Shown piece after piece: positions 1 to 35,242 of a DNA stretch of 47,528 nt. The notes beneath the pieces were generated by a model. The model was not told where the DNA came from. It did no database searches and was given only the letters and a program-made list of their open reading frames with translations. The stretch is from Akkermansia muciniphila (GTDB lineage Bacteria > Verrucomicrobiota > Verrucomicrobiia > Verrucomicrobiales > DEV007). The first letter of the stretch is position 1. The number at the start of each line of letters is the position of its first letter. The DNA is taken from NCBI GenBank assembly GCA_945883495.1, contig CAMCXS010000044.1:1-47528 (forward strand), in the 5' to 3' direction. The position numbers and the translations under genes are program-made.

Positions 1-348
1 TACTAGGAACGCGTGGATCCAAATGGGAACGCGCCAAGCTGGGTCAGATTGCTCTACGAGTCGCAGAAACGGCAAACCAAGGATGGCGGCGATAGTCGGA
101 CACAGGTGAGTCCATCGCGGTCGAAGCGACGTCAAAACTCTTTGTGCCTGAGGTAGTCGATCCCAGCGACTCCAAAGGCACCATGCCGCTAAGAGAGGGA
201 CGAGCCAGCCGTAGTCGTAGTAAGATCCCTCCCTCCACCAGGGCGCAAGCGTGATCGCAAGTTGACCCCAAAGCAGTGCTCCGAAAACAAGAGACGGCAG
301 CGCCTGCTGGATCCCAGGTTGGTATCGTTCAAGGCAACGTGAACTCAT
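1..348 (-). CDS. exosortase (EpsH/Xrt family), N-terminal part, cut by window edge
   Basis: The reverse strand from the ATG at 348 stays open for 116 codons to base 1, so the 3' end lies outside the window. The visible part has a first hydrophobic helix (about residues 17-36), then the stretch REGSYYDYGWLVPLL (39-53) leading into a second helix. A Tyr-Gly followed by L-V-P in this position is the hallmark of the N-terminus of exosortase/archaeosortase membrane proteins. These are membrane transpeptidases that recognise C-terminal sorting tags such as PEP-CTERM, usually in exopolysaccharide loci. The catalytic Cys, Arg and His would lie beyond the edge and cannot be checked. The start is 14 bases after the glycosyltransferase stop, which suggests one transcript. 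The family assignment is inferred from this motif and the context; the exosortase subtype is unknown. Confidence 0.72.
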   Translation of the reverse strand, partial: MSSRCLERYQPGIQQALPSLVFGALLWGQLAITLAPWWREGSYYDYGWLVPLLAAWCLWSRWDRLPQAQRVLTSLRPRWTHLCPTIAAILGLPFLRLVEQSDPAWRVPIWIHAFLV

Positions 349-362
349 GACGGTGCAGGGGC

Positions 363-1736
363 TCAAGCTGGGGAGCCTGCAAGAAAGTTCTCCGCCGAAA
401 AAGCGGGTCGTCTCCTGGCAAATCGTAATAGGCGCGCGGGCCAGCCAGCCACATACTGGGCAAGTAAAGCGGGTCTGCGTGAAGCTAAAGACAGATCAAA
501 ACGCATCGCTCCGGCCGAAAGAAGCGCTTCTTGAAGGGCTCTTGAGGTAGCAGCCTGATCAAACTTATCGCGAGCCAAAAGGTGTCCAGTCGCCCCGTAA
601 CTTCGCGAAAGTGGCACATCTTCCAAAAGCGTCTGCAAGCAATTGGCAAACTGTTCGGGTTTGCGCTCATCGGTGAGTAGGCCATTGGCCCCGTCGATGA
701 CCATTTCGGGGATGCCTGCCAGCCGAGTGGAGACGCAAGGCAGTCCGACAGCCATCGCTTCCATGATCACCGTCGGCAGATTGTCCATGCCTCCGTCTCT
801 TTCCGTCACGCAGGCCAATGCAAACACGTGCGCTTGATTCGCTAGCGACTCAATAATGCGTTCTTGATCCCATTCCCCTTCAAGGTGAACATGCGAAGAT
901 AAGCCTAGCTTCAGAATCATGGCTCGCAACTCGGCCTCAAGCGGTCCACCTCCCACGATGTGGATGGTGTGAGTTACGCCTCGATCACGAAGAATCGCGG
1001 AAGCACGGATCAAGTCGTCGAAGCCTTTCTTTTCGATGAGGCGGCCTATCGAGTAGATTCTTCGAGAGCCTATTCCGCGGGGATAACCGTTCGCGGCCTG
1101 CTGCCATGGTCTCAGATCAAGGCCGTTATAGACTCTTCGGATCTTGGGCTGGGTGCCGGGGTGCTCGGTGCCGAGGCGATTTACCGTGTAATCGCTGACA
1201 GTGATAATCCGGGCGGCATCGCGCATTAGCAGAGCCAGGGAGACTGGCGTTTCGACCTCCGCACAGAAGACGTCATTGGCGTGGGCCGTGAGACTGTAGC
1301 TTACGCCGTAGAAGTTGCGCATCCACCAGAGAGTCCGCGCGGCGCGGCCAGCAAAATGGCAATGCGCGTGACCTGCCCCCGGAGCGAGAATCTTCAGCTG
1401 CTCGCCGATCCAAATGGCCTCGTAAATCCTGAGCTTATCGGGCTGCCCGCTCCAATACCGTAGCGCGTGATCCGCCGGCTTTGGAACCTTTTTCTCAGCT
1501 CTTAGCTGTTTAACCGTTCGGGTTAACTCCTCGCTTTCAGGCAAGTAGCGAACGATCTCGCGGAGGGCTGTGGGATAGGTTTGAACCGGCTCGTCCCGCG
1601 GATCGCGCAAGCTAAAAATCAAAGGCCGAACTCCTTGTGCCCGGAGCTCCAAAATCTCCCGGACGCAGAATGTCTGCGTGAACGTGGGGAAACGCTCAAA
1701 CACATACACTAGGTGCGGGCGCGACTGCGGGACCAT
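363..1736 (-). CDS. glycosyltransferase family 4 (GT-B), exopolysaccharide type
   Basis: This 457-residue protein has the two-domain GT-B pattern. The N-terminal acceptor domain carries AHANDVF (151-157) after a His-rich turn. The C-terminal nucleotide-sugar domain has GRLIEKKGF (231-239), VGGGPLEAEL (261-270) and the D/E-x7-E motif (D318...E326), followed by GLPCVSTRLAGIPEMV, typical of GT4 retaining enzymes that transfer a sugar from an activated donor to a growing glycan. It is longer at the N-terminus than minimal GT4 enzymes, like WcaL/EpsF-type transferases of colanic-acid and PEP-CTERM loci. The exosortase gene follows 14 bases downstream on the same strand, which supports a role in surface polysaccharide synthesis. 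The donor and acceptor sugars cannot be read from the sequence. The last 40 residues are Arg-rich and may be peripheral to the fold. Confidence 0.9.
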   Translation of the reverse strand: MVPQSRPHLVYVFERFPTFTQTFCVREILELRAQGVRPLIFSLRDPRDEPVQTYPTALREIVRYLPESEELTRTVKQLRAEKKVPKPADHALRYWSGQPDKLRIYEAIWIGEQLKILAPGAGHAHCHFAGRAARTLWWMRNFYGVSYSLTAHANDVFCAEVETPVSLALLMRDAARIITVSDYTVNRLGTEHPGTQPKIRRVYNGLDLRPWQQAANGYPRGIGSRRIYSIGRLIEKKGFDDLIRASAILRDRGVTHTIHIVGGGPLEAELRAMILKLGLSSHVHLEGEWDQERIIESLANQAHVFALACVTERDGGMDNLPTVIMEAMAVGLPCVSTRLAGIPEMVIDGANGLLTDERKPEQFANCLQTLLEDVPLSRSYGATGHLLARDKFDQAATSRALQEALLSAGAMRFDLSLASRRPALLAQYVAGWPARLLRFARRRPAFSAENFLAGSPA

Positions 1737-1909
1737 AGAGCCGGAAGGCTACCCTTGGACGGCTCGGTTGCAACGTTCTTGCATGAGTTCATGGCCTCCG
1801 TCGCGGTTGATGCTAGATTGCGTGCCGTGGAACAGTTGAAAGTTTGGGAGCGCTCGATTCCACGGCGCATTGTAGCGGTCTTCGGGGCGCTTTGTTGCGT
1901 TGTATTGTC

Positions 1910-3169
1910 ATGATTGCGATCGTTGGGGCAGGTTTGGCGGGCATGGCTGCGGCGCGGCGGCTAGAAAACGCGGGTTGTCAAGACTACACAATCCTGGATC
2001 GGGAATCCAGGGCTGGTGGTAGGGTTGACACGCGGATCATAGATGGCTTTCGGCTCGACGTAGGATTCCACGTTGCCTCGACCGGATACCCTGCCTTCCA
2101 GCGCATCCTGCCGAGCTTCCTTCTTGATCCTGAATGGTTCGACGCCGGGGTGCTGCTGCAAAACGGAGTTGGGGAATTGGTGCCATTTTACCATCCGCTA
2201 AGGCATCCCAGGAGCGCATGGGATGCTGGCTGGCCTCCGTTTGCCGCTTGGGATCTCTTCCATTTTGCTACCTTGGGACTCGAGTGCTTGGCTGGGTTCG
2301 GGGATGTTTGGGCTGCAACACACCACGGCTCCGCAGCGGATCTCCTAAGTAAGCGCGGTTTCTCGGACCTGTGCGTTGAATCCTTTTGGCGTCCGTTCTT
2401 CGGAGGAGTGTTCTTAGATCAAGACCTGCAAACAAGTGCTGGATTGCTGCGGTATTACTTGCGTGCTTTTATCCTGGGACGCGCGTTTCTTCCTGGTGGC
2501 GGAATCGGTCGCTTAGCTTCAATTCTGCGCGAGAAGATTCCCGATGAGCGCTTCCGATTCCATGCGAATGTCAGGGAAGTTGAGAAGGGGCCCGATGGCT
2601 TCCGTGTGGCGTTGGATTCCGGTGAGATTCTGCGGGCAGTCAGTGTCATCCTAGCGAACGGTCCAGTTGGCGTGAGCCAGCTCCTCCATTGGCCGGAGCC
2701 GGAGATGCGGCCAACCACCACCCTCTATTTCAAGAGTAGGCGTGCCCTCTATCCGGAGCGATGTCTCGTCCTGCCCAGGGCGAAAGATGCATTGGTTCGC
2801 CATTATGTCCAGTTGACCAACATCGATCCCGGCTTGGCTCCGAAGGGGTCACATCTTCTAAGCGCCACTGTCCTTAACAACCAAGATCTGGACGATGGTA
2901 CCCTCTTTTCGCTTGCTCTCCGGGAGATCGGCAACCTAATGCCTGATGCTGCTGGCTTGCTGGAGCCGCTTCACGTGACCAGGGTCCCGGCAGCCTTGCC
3001 TGCGCAGACTCCACAAAGGCTGGCATCCTGGCTTGAAAGGCGGGCAAATCTTCCGCCGGGCTTGCTGCTGGCGGGAGATCTCGCGGGTAATGCCAGTCAG
3101 AACAATGCGCTTGAGACTGGGGTGGCGGCTGCAGAAAAGGCTCTGTGGATGACTGGTCGATTAACCTAA
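1910..3169 (+). CDS. FAD-dependent amine oxidase-like oxidoreductase (phytoene desaturase/protoporphyrinogen oxidase fold)
   Basis: I start this gene at the ATG at 1910 because the dinucleotide-binding fold begins right there: MIAIVGAGLAGM with G6-x-G8-x-x-G11, then the acidic end of strand 2 and the RAGGRV motif (34-39), which bind FAD in the flavin amine oxidase superfamily. A C-terminal LLLAGD near residue 385, followed by NNALETGVAAAEKAL, is the second FAD-contacting segment. The length (419 residues) fits NAD(P)-binding FAD oxidoreductases related to phytoene desaturase, squalene desaturase HpnE and protoporphyrinogen oxidase. The substrate is unknown; no isoprenoid genes are adjacent. 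It is transcribed away from the glycosyltransferase and its stop overlaps the stop of nspC by 9 bases in convergent orientation. An in-frame upstream extension to 1844 lacks similarity and was not used. Confidence 0.85.
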   Translation: MIAIVGAGLAGMAAARRLENAGCQDYTILDRESRAGGRVDTRIIDGFRLDVGFHVASTGYPAFQRILPSFLLDPEWFDAGVLLQNGVGELVPFYHPLRHPRSAWDAGWPPFAAWDLFHFATLGLECLAGFGDVWAATHHGSAADLLSKRGFSDLCVESFWRPFFGGVFLDQDLQTSAGLLRYYLRAFILGRAFLPGGGIGRLASILREKIPDERFRFHANVREVEKGPDGFRVALDSGEILRAVSVILANGPVGVSQLLHWPEPEMRPTTTLYFKSRRALYPERCLVLPRAKDALVRHYVQLTNIDPGLAPKGSHLLSATVLNNQDLDDGTLFSLALREIGNLMPDAAGLLEPLHVTRVPAALPAQTPQRLASWLERRANLPPGLLLAGDLAGNASQNNALETGVAAAEKALWMTGRLT

Positions 3170-4366
3170 ACGCATTGCGAAGTCCTCGTAGCCGAACTTC
3201 TTCGTGAGTCTTATTTGGCCGTCCTCGTACACTGCCAAGGAGGGCAGGTTGACCCCGTTGAAAGTCGTTGTCTTAACCGCCGTGTAATAGGCTTGGTCCT
3301 CAAACACGAGGTAGTCGCCAATTTGCAGCGGAGAGTCAAAGCTGTAATCGCCGATTACATCGCCCGCGAGGCATGTTGGTCCACCCAGACGATAGGTAAA
3401 TGCTTTCACCCCGGGCTCTCCTGCATCCATGAGCGGAGGGCGATATGGCATTTCCAGCACATCCGGCATGTGGCAAGTTGCGGAGATGTCGAGAATTGCG
3501 ATCTGGACGCCATTCTCTATGATGTCCTGCACGGTCCCGATCAGGCAGCCGGCTTGGTAAGCTACGGCCTCGCCGGGCTCCAGATAGAGCTTTAGGTGGG
3601 GATAACGGCCTTTAAAACTCGACAAGATGGTGTGAAGATGATCAAGGTCATACATCGGCGAGGTCAGTAAGTGGCCGCCTCCCATGTTTAGCCACTTCAT
3701 TTGGGGGAGCCATTTCCCAAATTTCAACTCCACTGCATCAAGAGCCTGCTCAAGGGCGTCATGAAACTTCTCGCACAACACATGGAAGTGCAGTCCCTCT
3801 ATTCCCCGCAGATCAGCTCCTTCCAGTGCACTCGACAGCAATCCAAATCTTGAACCGGGTGCACAAGGATCATAAAGGGTGGCAGCGGCGGATGAATACT
3901 CGGGGTTCACGCGCAGACCTGCCGAGATTTGGCGCGGCGCATAAAGAACGCGATCGCGAAACTTCTCCCATTGGGAAAGTGAATTAAATACCAGGTGGTC
4001 TGCGATTGCTAAAAGCTGATCCATCTCCCCTTCCTTGTAGGCCGGGGCAAATACGTGGACCTCCCCACCAAAATGGCGAAACCCATGCAGCGCTTCGTGC
4101 AATCCCGAGGACGTCGTTCCAGTAAGGTAGGTCCGGAGCGCCGGATACAGTGTTTGACTGCTGAAGGCTTTCTGTGCCAGCAAGATCGATACTCCGCTGC
4201 GTTGCTGAATGCCTTGAAGGGTGCGACCGTTCTCGTTAAACCTCTCGGCGTCGAAGACAAAACAAGGAGTCTCCAACCTGCTTTCCCGAAAGGCATGAAC
4301 GATTTGCGACGAACGCGCATCGTTCGAGCCAGCTTGCTGATTGAAGATTGAGGAGACGTGGGTCAT
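3161..4366 (-). CDS. nspC: carboxynorspermidine/carboxyspermidine decarboxylase
   Basis: NspC is a PLP enzyme of the alanine-racemase-like fold III group. It decarboxylates carboxynorspermidine or carboxyspermidine to norspermidine or spermidine, the last step of the aspartate-semialdehyde-dependent polyamine route. The expected PLP lysine is in LLAQKAFSS (K66). Further family segments are GLHFHVLCE (191-199), LNMGGGH (226-232, phosphate binding), EPGEA (263-267) and CHMPDVLEMPYRPP (298-311), which supplies the active-site Cys and Asp pair seen in this subfamily. At 401 residues it is slightly longer than the usual 370-380, with the excess at the N-terminus. It lies 33 bases behind the partner dehydrogenase on the same strand, so the two probably form an operon. 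Whether the product is spermidine or norspermidine depends on the diamine used. Confidence 0.93.
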   Translation of the reverse strand: MTHVSSIFNQQAGSNDARSSQIVHAFRESRLETPCFVFDAERFNENGRTLQGIQQRSGVSILLAQKAFSSQTLYPALRTYLTGTTSSGLHEALHGFRHFGGEVHVFAPAYKEGEMDQLLAIADHLVFNSLSQWEKFRDRVLYAPRQISAGLRVNPEYSSAAATLYDPCAPGSRFGLLSSALEGADLRGIEGLHFHVLCEKFHDALEQALDAVELKFGKWLPQMKWLNMGGGHLLTSPMYDLDHLHTILSSFKGRYPHLKLYLEPGEAVAYQAGCLIGTVQDIIENGVQIAILDISATCHMPDVLEMPYRPPLMDAGEPGVKAFTYRLGGPTCLAGDVIGDYSFDSPLQIGDYLVFEDQAYYTAVKTTTFNGVNLPSLAVYEDGQIRLTKKFGYEDFAMRLG

Positions 4367-4399
4367 GGTGAATCGCTAGAGGCGGATCAAACCGACGAT

Positions 4400-5608
4400 T
4401 TACGGAACTGCCAGTGGATCCGCTTCTCGGAGCTCCCATGGGAGGCCAAAAGCTCCCAAATCGTTCATGAACGGATCGGGATTCAACTCCTCGATGTTCC
4501 AAACACCTGGACGAAGCCAAGCGCCGGTGAGGAGTTGCTTGGCTCCCACGACGGGCGGAACCCCCGCCGTGTAGGAAATTGCCTGCGATTTGAGCTCTCG
4601 GTAGCAAGCTTCGTGGTCGCAGATGTTGTAGATGAACTTGGTCTCCTCCTTTCCGGCCTTGGTTCCCGTGACAAGGCATCCAATGCAAGTCTTCCCCTTG
4701 GTATCGGGGCCCAAACTGGCTGGATCCGGGAGCAATGCTTTCAAAAACTCAATCGGAATCACCGAATGGCCTTGATACATCACGGGTTCGATGGAGGTCA
4801 TCCCGACATTCTCCAGCACCCGAAGGTGGGTGAGATAGTTCTGGGAGAAAGTCATCCAAAACCGGATGCGCTCCAAGCCCCGGAGGTTGAGAGCTAAGCT
4901 CTCCAGCTCCTCGTGAAACAGCAAATAGATCTCACGGGTTCCCACTTGTTCGTGAGGGAACGCATACGGCAGATGCACGGAAAGTGGATCAGTCTCCTTC
5001 CAAACTCCTTTCTCCCAGTAGCGCCCACGTTGGGTGATCTCGCGGATATTGATCTCTGGGTTAAAGTTCGTGGCAAATGGGCGGCCGTGATCACCGGCGT
5101 TCGCGTCGAGAATATCAACGGTGCGGATCTCGTCAAAGTAGTGCTTCGCGGCGTAGGCACAAAAAGCATTCGTGACCCCGGGATCAAAGCCGCAGCCCAA
5201 AATCGCCGTCAGACCAGCTTTCTCAAAACGCTCCCGGTAGGCCCACTGCCATTTGTATTCGAACTTCGCCACGTCACGCGGCTCATAATTCGCGGTATCG
5301 ACGTAGTGAACGCCCGCCTCGAGACAAGCATCCATCAGCGGCAGATCCTGGTAGGGCAGAGCCAAATTGAGTAGCACCGTCGGGCGAACTTCCTCAAGCA
5401 ACTTCACCGTTGCCCGGACGTCATCTGCGTCCAGCGATGCCGTATGAATCGTCTTCCCGTCCGCCGCTAGATCGCTCGCGATGGCGTCGCAACGGCTCTT
5501 GGTGCGGCTTGCGAGCCAAATGTCCGAGAACACATCAGGAAATTGAGCCGCTTTGCGAACAGTGACACTGCCGACGCCGCCGGCTCCGACTACAAGAATT
5601 CTACTCAT
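4400..5608 (-). CDS. carboxy(nor)spermidine dehydrogenase, saccharopine dehydrogenase family
   Basis: This 402-residue protein begins with a Rossmann motif, VVGAGGVGSV (G8-x-G10-x-x-G13), and contains GCGFDPGVTN (138-147), a conserved catalytic-domain segment of saccharopine-dehydrogenase-like carboxyspermidine synthases. The family condenses aspartate beta-semialdehyde with putrescine or 1,3-diaminopropane and reduces the Schiff base with NADPH, giving the substrate of NspC. A true lysine-pathway saccharopine dehydrogenase is a less likely reading because the very next gene is the matching decarboxylase. The start ATG at 5608 is directly followed by the nucleotide-binding strand, leaving no room for a signal peptide, so it is cytoplasmic. 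The gene is divergent from the helix-hairpin-helix gene at 5901, with roughly 290 bases between them to hold both promoters. Confidence 0.9.
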   Translation of the reverse strand: MSRILVVGAGGVGSVTVRKAAQFPDVFSDIWLASRTKSRCDAIASDLAADGKTIHTASLDADDVRATVKLLEEVRPTVLLNLALPYQDLPLMDACLEAGVHYVDTANYEPRDVAKFEYKWQWAYRERFEKAGLTAILGCGFDPGVTNAFCAYAAKHYFDEIRTVDILDANAGDHGRPFATNFNPEINIREITQRGRYWEKGVWKETDPLSVHLPYAFPHEQVGTREIYLLFHEELESLALNLRGLERIRFWMTFSQNYLTHLRVLENVGMTSIEPVMYQGHSVIPIEFLKALLPDPASLGPDTKGKTCIGCLVTGTKAGKEETKFIYNICDHEACYRELKSQAISYTAGVPPVVGAKQLLTGAWLRPGVWNIEELNPDPFMNDLGAFGLPWELREADPLAVP

Positions 5609-5790
5609 CGTTGTTTCAACTAATTGCGACGTTCTCCCGGTGCGAGTGCCCAGCGCAGCCGCGCAATGGGAGCCCAGTGCCGACGGGCCCGAAATAACGC
5701 GGTGCCGGGTGGCATGTCAACGGCGGCAGGGCGAAAAGTCGGCATTGAAAGAGAGAGCTCTCCCAGAGAAAAGTGTTCAGAATGACAAAA

Positions 5791-5820
5791 TTGACGCTTG
5801 CGCAATCGAACAGCTATGGT
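5791..5820 (+). promoter_or_regulatory. sigma-70-like promoter for the gene at 5901
   Basis: TTGACG (5791-5796) and TATGGT (5815-5820) are separated by 18 bases, a good match to the primary-sigma consensus. The downstream gene starts at 5901 and is preceded by a purine-rich ribosome site (AGAAAGGA, 5883-5890). The implied leader is about 70 bases. No clear operator or riboswitch fold was seen in this leader. Confidence 0.5.
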
Positions 5821-5900
5821 AGATCATGCAAACACTGAGCGGATGGACAGTCCACCCGATCGTGATCGAAACACAACAAATCAGAAAGGAATAAGAAAAC

Positions 5901-32536: not shown

Positions 32537-32785
32537 ATGGATGCCAAGCCCATCGTCGCGGGGACATGCCCGGCCGTTTTACCGTCGGAACCGGGTGAAT
32601 ACTGGTGGTGCGCCTGTGGACGTTCGAGTCATCAACCGTTTTGCGATGGGAGCCACAAGGGAACCCGGATCGCTCCGGTGAAAGTTATGATCGAGGAGGC
32701 CCGCCGTGTGGCCTGGTGCAACTGCAAGCATAGCGCGAGCCAACCGTTCTGTGATGGAAGCCACGCGAGACTGGAGAGCGCATGA
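32537..32785 (+). CDS. double CDGSH iron-sulfur domain protein
   Basis: This protein has 82 residues with two complete CDGSH motifs of the C-x-C-x8-C-D-G-S-H class: C25/C27/C36/H40 (CACGRSSHQPFCDGSH) and C61/C63/C72/H76 (CNCKHSASQPFCDGSH). Each should bind one redox-active [2Fe-2S] cluster by three Cys and one His. It resembles the bacterial tandem-CDGSH (miner2-like) monomers in which two motifs make one barrel. No signal peptide or membrane helix is present, so it is cytosolic. The stop overlaps the next ATG by four bases (ATGA), coupling it to the DsbD-family membrane protein. Electron delivery to the membrane or sensing of thiol state is a possible joint role, but this is inference. The protease gene ends 44 bases upstream. 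Confidence 0.93.
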   Translation: MDAKPIVAGTCPAVLPSEPGEYWWCACGRSSHQPFCDGSHKGTRIAPVKVMIEEARRVAWCNCKHSASQPFCDGSHARLESA

Positions 32786-34905
32786 AAGGAGAAAAGCGCG
32801 GTCGCGTCCATAGAGGGGTGAGCCTTCTCCTTCCTGGTTTCCGTCGTTTGGTCGTCGTTTTGCTCCTGTTTTGTGGGGCCGGTATCGCTGCGGCGCTCCC
32901 ATCGCGGACGCATTTGGAAGCACGGATTTTGGTGGATGATCGTCCACGAGCCGCAGGCGAGCCCTTTTTAGCGGCGATCCGATTCGAGATCGAGGAAGGC
33001 TGGCATATTTATTGGGAGAATCCTGGCAGCCCTGGAGCACCGCCCAAGGTTACCTGGAAGCTGCCGGAGGGTTACAGTGCCGGTCCGCTTCTCTTTCCCA
33101 CTCCCCATCGCTTCGATGCAGCTGGCTATCGAAGCTACGGCTACGAGAGAGAGGTGATTCTCTTGGCCACGATCACCCCGCCCGCCGGTGCCGGTCTGCC
33201 GGAATCCATCTCGGCCGATGTGGTCTGGCTCGTTTGCGCGGAGACTTGCGTAAGGGGAAGCGCCACGCTGACGTGGAAGTCGGGTGATCCGTCGGGCACC
33301 AACGTGATTTCCCAGGCAGCCGCTGCGTTGCCTGCAAAGGTCGACTGGACCATCCACACGATGTTCGATTCCGCCACCCGCGGAGTTTCGTTCACGTTGG
33401 AAGACGGCGGGAGCGTCAAGACGGACCCGGCAAAACTCTACTTCTACCCATCGGCATCTGGGATTACCAATTCAGCCGCCGCGCAAACCGTAACTCGTGA
33501 AGGGCAGAGCTTGGTCATCGTGACGGAAGCGGAAGGCCAATTCATCGGAATCTTCCCTCCAGAAATCGGCGGAGTGCTTGCGGCGGACGATGGTTCAAGC
33601 GCCTGGAGGATCGGCGGACCGGCCTTGGAAGTATCCACGGAACCAGCCGAAGCGCCGACCAAGACGGGTGGCCCGCAAGGTTGGGGCTACTGGCTGCAAC
33701 AGCCGCTGATCGTGGCTTGCTTGGCGGCAGTGATGCTTCTGATTGCGCTCAATCTCTTCGGCGTCTTTGAGATCGGCGGCAGCCTGACTGGGGTTGGAGC
33801 CGAATTGACCCACAAAGAAGGCTTGGCGGGATCATTTTTCAGTGGAGCCTTGGCCACGCTGCTCGCTACGCCTTGCACCGCCCCGGCGATGGGTTTTGCC
33901 ATCACCTATGCCTTGGGCGCTCCGGTGGGCATCGCGGTGCTGATTTTCACGTTGATTGGTGTGGGGATGGCGACGCCGTATCTGCTTCTTTCCGCGTTTC
34001 CGGGCTGGATTGCGCGTCTTCCCCGGCCCGGAGCCTGGATGGAGACCTTCAAACAGGCGATGGCCTTTCCGATGATTCTCGTGATGGGCTGGTTGCTTTC
34101 GGTAATGGCTCAGCAGGTGAACTCGGATGGTCTCTTCCTCGGGATTTCCGGTTTGGTGCTGGTGGCTCTCGGCGCCTGGATCTTTGGACGTTTTGGGAGC
34201 CCAGCGCGGGCGGAGCAGACGAGGCGAATTGCTTGGGGCGCCAGTGCGTTGCTGCTCTTGGTGGCCTTCCAATTCGCTTCCAAGGGGGCCAGCCAGGAAC
34301 GCCCGGTAGTGGCGCGGGACGTAGAAGCGGAAATTGCTGCGTTGCAGGACCAGGGGAAAGCCGTCTTTGTCGACTTCACCGCGTCCTGGTGCGTGACGTG
34401 CCAAGCCAACAAGCCGGCGATCCACAGCGGTGAAGTGGAGCGCGCATTTGCCGAAGAAGGGGTCGCCTTTCTTGAGGTTGATTGGACCCAGGAAGATCCG
34501 GCGATTTTAAAGGTCCTGCAAAAGTATGAGCGCAACGGCGTGCCGCTCTACCTGCTGTTCTCCAAGGACAAATCGGCCGCGCCCAAGGTGCTCCCGAACC
34601 TCCTGACGCCCGGGCTCATCGTCGAAGCCGTCCTGGGAACAGGCGGGGCGAGCGAGGCGGCAGCGCCGAAGGAACTGGGGCTCTGGGCTGCCTTAGGCGG
34701 CGCATTCTTGGGCGGAATGATTCTGAATCTAATGCCGTGCGTGTTCCCGGTGATCTCGCTGAAGATCATGGGTTTTGTCGCGCAGGCGGGGGAAGACCGG
34801 CGCCGCATCCTTCAACACGGGTTGTCGTTTACCGCCGGCGTGCTGGTCTTTTTCTGGATTATCACGGCCGCGCTGCTTTCCGCGAGGGCGGCGTTGGGGG
34901 CCTGA
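32782..34905 (+). CDS. DsbD-family thiol-disulfide interchange protein with displaced TM1-TM2 segment
   Basis: The protein has 707 residues. A signal (about 22-39) is followed by a periplasmic DsbD/ScsB-like N-domain with CAETC (C152, C156). Then come six membrane helices (about 308-495) that match helices 3-8 of the family, including the catalytic TPCTAP motif (C365) in the helix equivalent to TM4. A thioredoxin domain with WCVTC (C537, C540) follows. Only after that do two more helices occur (about 635-707) with the catalytic MPCVFP motif (C653), which in this family is in TM1. So the order is N-domain, TM3-8, thioredoxin, TM1-2, instead of N-domain, TM1-8, thioredoxin. The family moves reducing equivalents from cytosolic thioredoxin to periplasmic proteins. 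All cysteine pairs are kept and there is no stop or frameshift. The start overlaps the CDGSH gene by four bases. Confidence 0.88.
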   Translation: MKGEKRGRVHRGVSLLLPGFRRLVVVLLLFCGAGIAAALPSRTHLEARILVDDRPRAAGEPFLAAIRFEIEEGWHIYWENPGSPGAPPKVTWKLPEGYSAGPLLFPTPHRFDAAGYRSYGYEREVILLATITPPAGAGLPESISADVVWLVCAETCVRGSATLTWKSGDPSGTNVISQAAAALPAKVDWTIHTMFDSATRGVSFTLEDGGSVKTDPAKLYFYPSASGITNSAAAQTVTREGQSLVIVTEAEGQFIGIFPPEIGGVLAADDGSSAWRIGGPALEVSTEPAEAPTKTGGPQGWGYWLQQPLIVACLAAVMLLIALNLFGVFEIGGSLTGVGAELTHKEGLAGSFFSGALATLLATPCTAPAMGFAITYALGAPVGIAVLIFTLIGVGMATPYLLLSAFPGWIARLPRPGAWMETFKQAMAFPMILVMGWLLSVMAQQVNSDGLFLGISGLVLVALGAWIFGRFGSPARAEQTRRIAWGASALLLLVAFQFASKGASQERPVVARDVEAEIAALQDQGKAVFVDFTASWCVTCQANKPAIHSGEVERAFAEEGVAFLEVDWTQEDPAILKVLQKYERNGVPLYLLFSKDKSAAPKVLPNLLTPGLIVEAVLGTGGASEAAAPKELGLWAALGGAFLGGMILNLMPCVFPVISLKIMGFVAQAGEDRRRILQHGLSFTAGVLVFFWIITAALLSARAALGA

Positions 34906-34909
34906 ACCT

Positions 34910-35242
34910 TTACGCCCTGCGAGACTGATGACCCGGACCGTGCAGGATGACCTGCGGCTCGCCGCCCTGTACCGCTTTCGACCAGAACAATACGTTTGAG
35001 CTGCCCGAAATCTCCGCTTTGCCGAGAGTCATGGCGGTGACTTGACAATCCGCTCCGGAGATGACCAGAGAACTCGCTTCATCAACGCGGATTTTATTGC
35101 CGCGGCCGACGATCTTGATTTCCGGGGACTTACCGGTGATTTCAAAAACGCACTGGCTGCCGGCGACGAGGATGGGCCTACCGTTCGCCTCAACGGGTCC
35201 GTTGGGCCGGGTGCCGGATGTGATCACGAGTTGTTGGGTCAC
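34910..35242 (-). CDS. DUF3060-like beta-repeat protein, possibly lacking its 5' end
   Basis: The frame runs from a GTG at 35242 for 110 residues. Its core shows short beta-strand repeats: VFEITGKSPEIKIVGRGNKI, VDEASSLVISGADCQVTAM, LGKAEISGSSNVLFW. The alternation of G-N/S-x-N turns with V-x-V strands resembles DUF3060, a secreted right-handed beta-helix-like family. No signal peptide is present, and an in-frame stop lies at 35261-35263 with no ATG between, so either the start is a weak GTG or the 5' part has been lost. Its stop is only four bases from the end of the rearranged DsbD gene, in convergent orientation. Function is unknown; confidence in the family is moderate. Confidence 0.5.
   Translation of the reverse strand: MTQQLVITSGTRPNGPVEANGRPILVAGSQCVFEITGKSPEIKIVGRGNKIRVDEASSLVISGADCQVTAMTLGKAEISGSSNVLFWSKAVQGGEPQVILHGPGHQSRRA

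Follow-up and report, generated by a model that had tools for sequence, protein, structure and literature searches.

Thiol electron conduits of the DsbD/ScsB type ordinarily consist of an N-domain, eight transmembrane helices (TM1-8), and a C-terminal thioredoxin domain. In E. coli DsbD, electrons pass from cytosolic thioredoxin to a cysteine pair within the membrane, then to the thioredoxin domain, and finally to the N-domain, which serves periplasmic clients; the N-domain cysteine pair is redox active in the DsbD_N family. Among soluble proteins, circular permutation is well documented. A 2015 paper on DsbB and VKOR reviewed the published cases and, before its own proposal, found none among polytopic helical membrane proteins; it suggested helix pairs as the possible minimal building blocks of such changes (PMC4555120). 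CcdA has six helices in two inverted repeats, and its TM1 and TM4 move with the active-site cysteines, a mechanism that its authors regard as needing confirmation (PMC7329351). In one open-access library, judged from titles and abstracts, we found no paper on a permuted DsbD, nor any on DsbD domain order or architecture in Verrucomicrobia.

We found that a 707-residue open reading frame in the window (the whole 47,528-nucleotide stretch of DNA analyzed here, contig CAMCXS010000044.1 of a Verrucomicrobiota assembly) is a natural, circularly permuted DsbD homologue (Table 1). It resembles DsbD and ScsB in having all four modules, eight helices by prediction, the three pairs of cysteines, and 52 of the 54 core residues that are invariant in ordinary relatives, but differs from them in that TM1-2 follow TM3-8 and the thioredoxin domain. 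With CcdA it shares a membrane core that bears active-site cysteines in TM1 and TM4 (PMC7329351); CcdA, however, has six helices in the ordinary order and no fused N-domain or thioredoxin. DsbB and VKOR are likewise thiol-redox membrane proteins with helix pairs in rotated order, but theirs is an ancient relation at 12.0-13.6% identity, whose direction the authors could not determine (PMC4555120), whereas the permuted DsbD has ordinary-order relatives up to 49% identical over TM3-8 plus thioredoxin, and its direction is clear.

Table 1. Coordinates of the permuted dsbD gene, its modules, and the adjoining upstream gene in the window
Feature	Position	Strand	Basis and remarks
Circularly permuted DsbD-family gene, 707 aa	32782..34905	+	Open frame, Pfam
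Signal peptide region, residues 1-38, hydrophobic 23-41	32782..32895	+	Hydropathy; signal peptide inferred
N-domain, residues 39-285, CAETC (C152/C156)	32896..33636	+	Pfam DsbD_N, 6c29 match; periplasmic by inference
Junction 1, linker N-domain/TM3, residues 286-297	33637..33672	+	Fast evolving, 29-50% identity
TM3-8, residues 298-500, TPCTAP with C365 in TM4	33673..34281	+	Pfam DsbD_TM 76-216, hydropathy
Thioredoxin domain, residues 501-616, WCVTC (C537/C540)	34282..34629	+	Pfam Thioredoxin_7, structural match 6dnu_A
Junction 2, linker thioredoxin/TM1, residues 617-630	34630..34671	+	Fast evolving, 29-43% identity
Moved hairpin TM1-2, residues 631-707, MPCVFP (C653)	34672..34902	+	Pfam DsbD_TM 2-64, below cut-off when alone
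CDGSH iron-sulphur protein gene	32537..32785	+	Pfam zf-CDGSH, E 1.3e-20, two stretches; overlaps dsbD start (ATGA)

The frame is uninterrupted, and both Pfam matches and hydropathy give the module order N-domain, TM3-8, thioredoxin, TM1-2. DsbD_N (PF11412) matches residues 57-162 (E = 1.7e-18; 67.2 bits versus a cut-off of 25), and Thioredoxin_7 (PF13899) matches residues 512-593 (61.8 bits versus a cut-off of 27). DsbD_TM (PF02683) is split: positions 76-216 of its 219 match residues 304-440 (60.7 bits versus a cut-off of 27.1), and the final 87 residues taken alone match positions 2-62 (E = 3.7e-4; 20.3 bits, below the cut-off). When this profile was run against the window genome, positions 76-216 fell at 33691-34101 and positions 2-64 at 34684-34869; in an ordinary-order relative (L048), positions 4-215 match as a single piece. 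The hydropathy scan found 11 hydrophobic stretches, eight of which we took as helices (six before the thioredoxin domain and two after it), excluding those in the signal peptide (residues 23-41), in the N-domain (125-143), and at the thioredoxin end (603-621). The protein has cysteines at residues 31, 152, 156, 313, 365, 537, 540, and 653. By homology it belongs to the DsbD/ScsB superfamily, since it has an N-domain with a cysteine pair, cysteines in TM1 and TM4, and a thioredoxin-like CxxC motif. It lacks the ordinary DsbD architecture, and it does not meet the cut-off of the NCBIfam model for protein-disulfide reductase DsbD (PRK00293; 99.9 bits versus 330), against which ordinary Verrucomicrobiota relatives were not scored. 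A solved structure, 6c29 ("Putative metal resistance protein"), which we take to be the N-domain of ScsB, matches residues 39-175.

A first-pass annotation had described this protein as a DsbD-family member with its first two helices behind the thioredoxin domain, as the two DsbD_TM pieces bear out, and every cysteine it numbered is correct in the translation. It had also proposed that the displaced block is complementary to the stretch following the N-domain. The seam is indeed nearly so: the chain ends in SARAALGA, the other side reads QGWGYWLQQP, and an ordinary-order relative (L006) reads ALRAAGSGAGWGYQLQ. Its further argument, that moving two helices leaves each domain on its own side of the membrane, agrees with the predicted loop charges: we counted 1, 3, 4, and 4 lysines plus arginines in the predicted cytoplasmic loops, 0 and 0 in the short periplasmic loops, and 1 each in the second linker and the tail. 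The N-domain, thioredoxin domain, and C terminus are thus inferred to be periplasmic. Because the cut and join points (between N-domain and TM1, between TM2 and TM3, and at the thioredoxin end) are all predicted to be periplasmic and an even number of helices moved, each domain should keep its side; a cut between TM2 and TM3 also leaves TM1 and TM4 intact.

AlphaFold2 modeled the core (residues 290-707; 47 alignment rows, with the TM1-2 of relatives entered as separate rows) with a pLDDT of 87.2 and a pTM of 0.80, as compared to 83.8 and 0.79 for the core of an ordinary relative (23 rows). The similar confidence of the two models is consistent with a packed core, without showing it. Only the core was folded because two whole-protein alignments were flawed and were discarded, one in which N-domain rows were stretched across the protein (A1) and one in which TM1-2 rows were misplaced (A3). 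The thioredoxin part of the model aligns with 6dnu_A, the C-terminal domain of DsbD (Z = 13.5 over 108 residues; rmsd, 2.2). For both the permuted and ordinary cores, Foldseek and VIA-align returned essentially thioredoxin-fold matches, so that a match to CcdA is neither shown nor excluded.

The protein is likely a thiol electron conduit as DsbD is, although its function is inferred. The TM1-2 hairpin would most likely dock on TM3-8 of the same chain, bringing C653 (TM1) and C365 (TM4) together as the usual membrane pair, and electrons would flow from cytosolic thioredoxin to C653/C365, then to C537/C540, to C152/C156, and on to periplasmic clients. It is possible, if unlikely, that the function has changed and that a thioredoxin domain tethered at both ends serves clients other than those of ordinary DsbD: the ordinary protein leaves one end of this domain free, the permuted one fixes it to TM8 on one side and TM1 on the other, and the N-domain is the least conserved domain among the three species that carry the permuted gene (68-71% identity). 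However, when we searched their three draft genomes with PF02683 (E of 0.1 or better), we found only the two halves of the permuted gene, so the normal task, if it is done, falls to that gene. The same search was positive in 11 of 14 control genomes; the drafts are 96, 81, and 96% complete, and a second DsbD missing from them is therefore possible but unlikely. We give little credence to a domain-swapped dimer, in which TM1-2 would complete the membrane core of a neighboring chain rather than its own. The linkers around the thioredoxin domain could reach either way, and no measurement separates docking in cis from docking in trans; yet junction 2 is only about 14-16 residues long, the pTM given above was obtained for a single chain, and the six-helix relative CcdA is described as monomeric (PMC7329351). 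We retain docking in cis, as an inference.

The permuted order is derived, with one origin seen, as judged from the order in relatives and from the gene tree. At 27 of 27 loci outside the genus (from 35 genomes searched), TM1-2 precedes TM3-8; 24 have all four segments in ordinary order, two at contig ends lack the N-domain, and one lacks a thioredoxin match. Of 514 relatives we took the best 80, which include the two sister species; the other 78 are all ordinary (two without an N-domain at a contig end). Phyla other than Verrucomicrobiota were sampled only among these best 80, since our genome-by-genome surveys were confined to that phylum. Within the family, matches occur in 62 of 74 genomes, and a single match spanning thioredoxin and TM1-2 is confined to the three genomes of this genus; no other match from the thioredoxin side extends past query position 151. 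A further 27 family loci (L119 to L145) are all ordinary; in four of these the sequence breaks off ahead of the N-domain. Six distant relatives with strong E-values that we considered as candidates for permutation (L038, L039, L040, L072, L083, and L096) proved ordinary. Trees of 51 and 52 rows, built with the segments set to ordinary order, place the permuted genes together in a single clade (100/100) among ordinary-order genes; its stem is long (0.9) and its sister is weakly supported (83/31).

Thus, an ordinary N-TM1-2-TM3-8-Trx gene would have become N-TM3-8-Trx-TM1-2. We infer that part of the gene was duplicated in tandem and that the outer parts were then lost, since rotation of a ring of modules is the expected outcome of tandem duplication with loss at both ends; duplication followed by deletion was also proposed for DsbB/VKOR (PMC4555120). 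Among the loci we examined, none was an intermediate with both copies of TM1-2, and a search for a TM3-8 remnant after the stop codon gave only chance-level matches (best E = 0.32), so this route at the DNA level rests on logic. At one Opitutae locus (L075, positions 193-5831), about 1.6 kb separates a pair of dsbD genes that share a strand and are both in ordinary order, the kind of starting arrangement that the duplication route needs.

The terminal TM1-2 might instead have come from a different dsbD copy than the remainder, by fusion of two genes, which we consider improbable. The four segments have different best BLAST partner rows, their scores correlate only weakly (TM1-2/TM3-8, 0.27; TM1-2/Trx, 0.22; TM3-8/Trx, 0.17; N/TM3-8, −0.04; N/TM1-2, 0.20), and 87 residues are too few to fix the placement of the block. 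Against fusion, TM1-2 correlates with the rest no less than the other segments do among themselves, and the seam is complementary. Because self-duplication too passes through two copies, the difference between fusion and the duplication that we favor is small.

All three genomes of the genus that we examined carry the permuted gene at full length (matches 23-707 and 11-706 in the sister species, which are separate records: QQNE01000014.1, V1-115, and JAGWVU010000001.1, REEB427). The proteins are 76-77% identical, with the frame intact across both divergent junctions. Identity is highest in the moved TM1-2 block (92-96%), followed by TM3-8 (86-87%) and the thioredoxin domain (80-87%); the 68-71% given above for the N-domain refers to its core, and the two new linkers evolve fastest (29-50%). 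For the moved block, NG86 gave dN of 0.018-0.055 and dS of 1.09-1.48, for a dN/dS of roughly 0.01-0.04; these values show that it is under purifying selection but remain rough, as dS is near saturation, some segment pairs have no NG86 estimate of dS, and YN00 gave no values for most. The 23 ordinary relatives share 54 invariant columns, and all three permuted proteins agree with them at 52 (TM1-2, 12 of 12; TM3-8, 29 of 30; thioredoxin, 11 of 12). One residue is lost in all three (a glutamine at the seam, where TM3 starts, replaced by tryptophan) and the other in one species. C313 and all six motif cysteines are present in the three species.

No activity has been shown for the gene, and it could in principle be a decaying, functionless product that merely happens to be open. 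We consider this very improbable, given that it is open in three species with all six motif cysteines, with selection on the moved block and with nearly all invariant residues in place. The window genome is a draft of 206 contigs, without read mapping, but misjoined pieces of an ordinary dsbD are practically ruled out, because genomes in three different records have the same order, at 76-77% identity and with the frame kept at the junctions. Of the options left by the first-pass annotation, an assembly artefact can therefore be dismissed, and so can a very recent rearrangement within the strain, since the permutation predates the split of the three species. Its proposed comparison with orthologs in neighboring genomes found two genus members permuted and the other family genera examined ordinary, and conservation and selection favor its first option, a rearranged but potentially functional conduit. 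The gene is probably a working, naturally permuted membrane protein, although its activity is inferred. We consider it likely that a thiol electron conduit of the DsbD/ScsB type underwent circular permutation naturally and that the new order was fixed in the ancestor of this one Verrucomicrobiota genus.

Most flanking genes are common to the window and the sister species. The CDGSH gene was not found in the dsbD stretches of the two sister species; a CDGSH match lies just upstream of an ordinary-order dsbD in 4 of 14 regions (L147, L148, L154, and L159), with 184-244 bases between matches. In the window, a small minus-strand frame (34910-35242) lies between the permuted dsbD and a GNAT gene, which in the sister species adjoins dsbD. 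Elsewhere in each of the three genomes of the genus, an open frame of about 340 residues matches the N-domain of DsbD and no other part of it (L002, L033, and L034). Among relatives, 11 DsbD genes (L017, L018, L021 to L024, L027, L028, L030, L031, and L159) carry a TGA codon, in frame, where the thioredoxin motif would have its first cysteine (W[TGA]xxC); this codon probably encodes selenocysteine, on codon evidence only.

A second rotation, N-Trx-TM1-2-TM3-8 (rotation B), is found in another family, f13, and in one genome, G600, of family f2 (L160 to L164). A thioredoxin-TM1-2 query was run on three overlapping draws of genomes and matched in one piece in 5 of the 387 drawn from the phylum, 7 of the 384 from the class, and 4 of the 288 from the order; with a cut-off as stringent as 1e-31, weaker examples may have escaped. 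The one-piece matches outside the window genus came from six f13 genomes and G600. In f13 (61 genomes searched with a second query), 30 loci comprised 7 of ordinary order and 23 of rotation B, with one lacking the N-domain in each set; two of the 23 are repeat views of genomes already counted. The family to which G600 belongs gave matches at 1e-24 in 40 of 117 genomes, but a match that spans both parts was seen in G600 alone, and nine other loci are in ordinary order. Judging by its translation, the G600 gene (L164) has a long acidic tail and, between the N-domain and thioredoxin, an insertion containing several hydrophobic segments.

Five changes are required to place the three orders on the tree. 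Rotation B is not one group: it accounts for four changes, which are also forced by well-supported branches, and of the rotation-B genes (L160 to L164 and L172 to L194, with L164 from G600) those of f13 are interspersed with ordinary-order genes. The position of the G600 gene is unsure because its branch is long. Rotation B likewise rotates the ring of modules behind the N-domain, but it is broken at the boundary of thioredoxin and the membrane domain, so that the latter remains in one piece, and on the tree it stands apart from the window clade; of the orders seen, only that of the window interrupts the membrane domain itself. Together with the ordinary and window orders, rotation B completes the three cyclic orders of TM1-2, TM3-8, and Trx behind the N-domain in the phylum. 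We think it probable, with somewhat less assurance than for the permutation itself, that the window gene represents a functional hairpin permutation with a readable direction, seen in one genus whose related genera are ordinary, and one of several rotations in the phylum.

The DsbD chain may thus be repeatedly re-cut at periplasmic loops in Verrucomicrobiota. Since a single helix pair has moved, ordinary-order relatives are up to 49% identical over TM3-8 plus thioredoxin, the direction is clear, and no other DsbD_TM gene was found in these genomes, the insertion, folding, and working of a re-threaded membrane protein are directly testable with natural sequences, and the second rotation permits a three-way comparison of the same modules in all of their cyclic orders.
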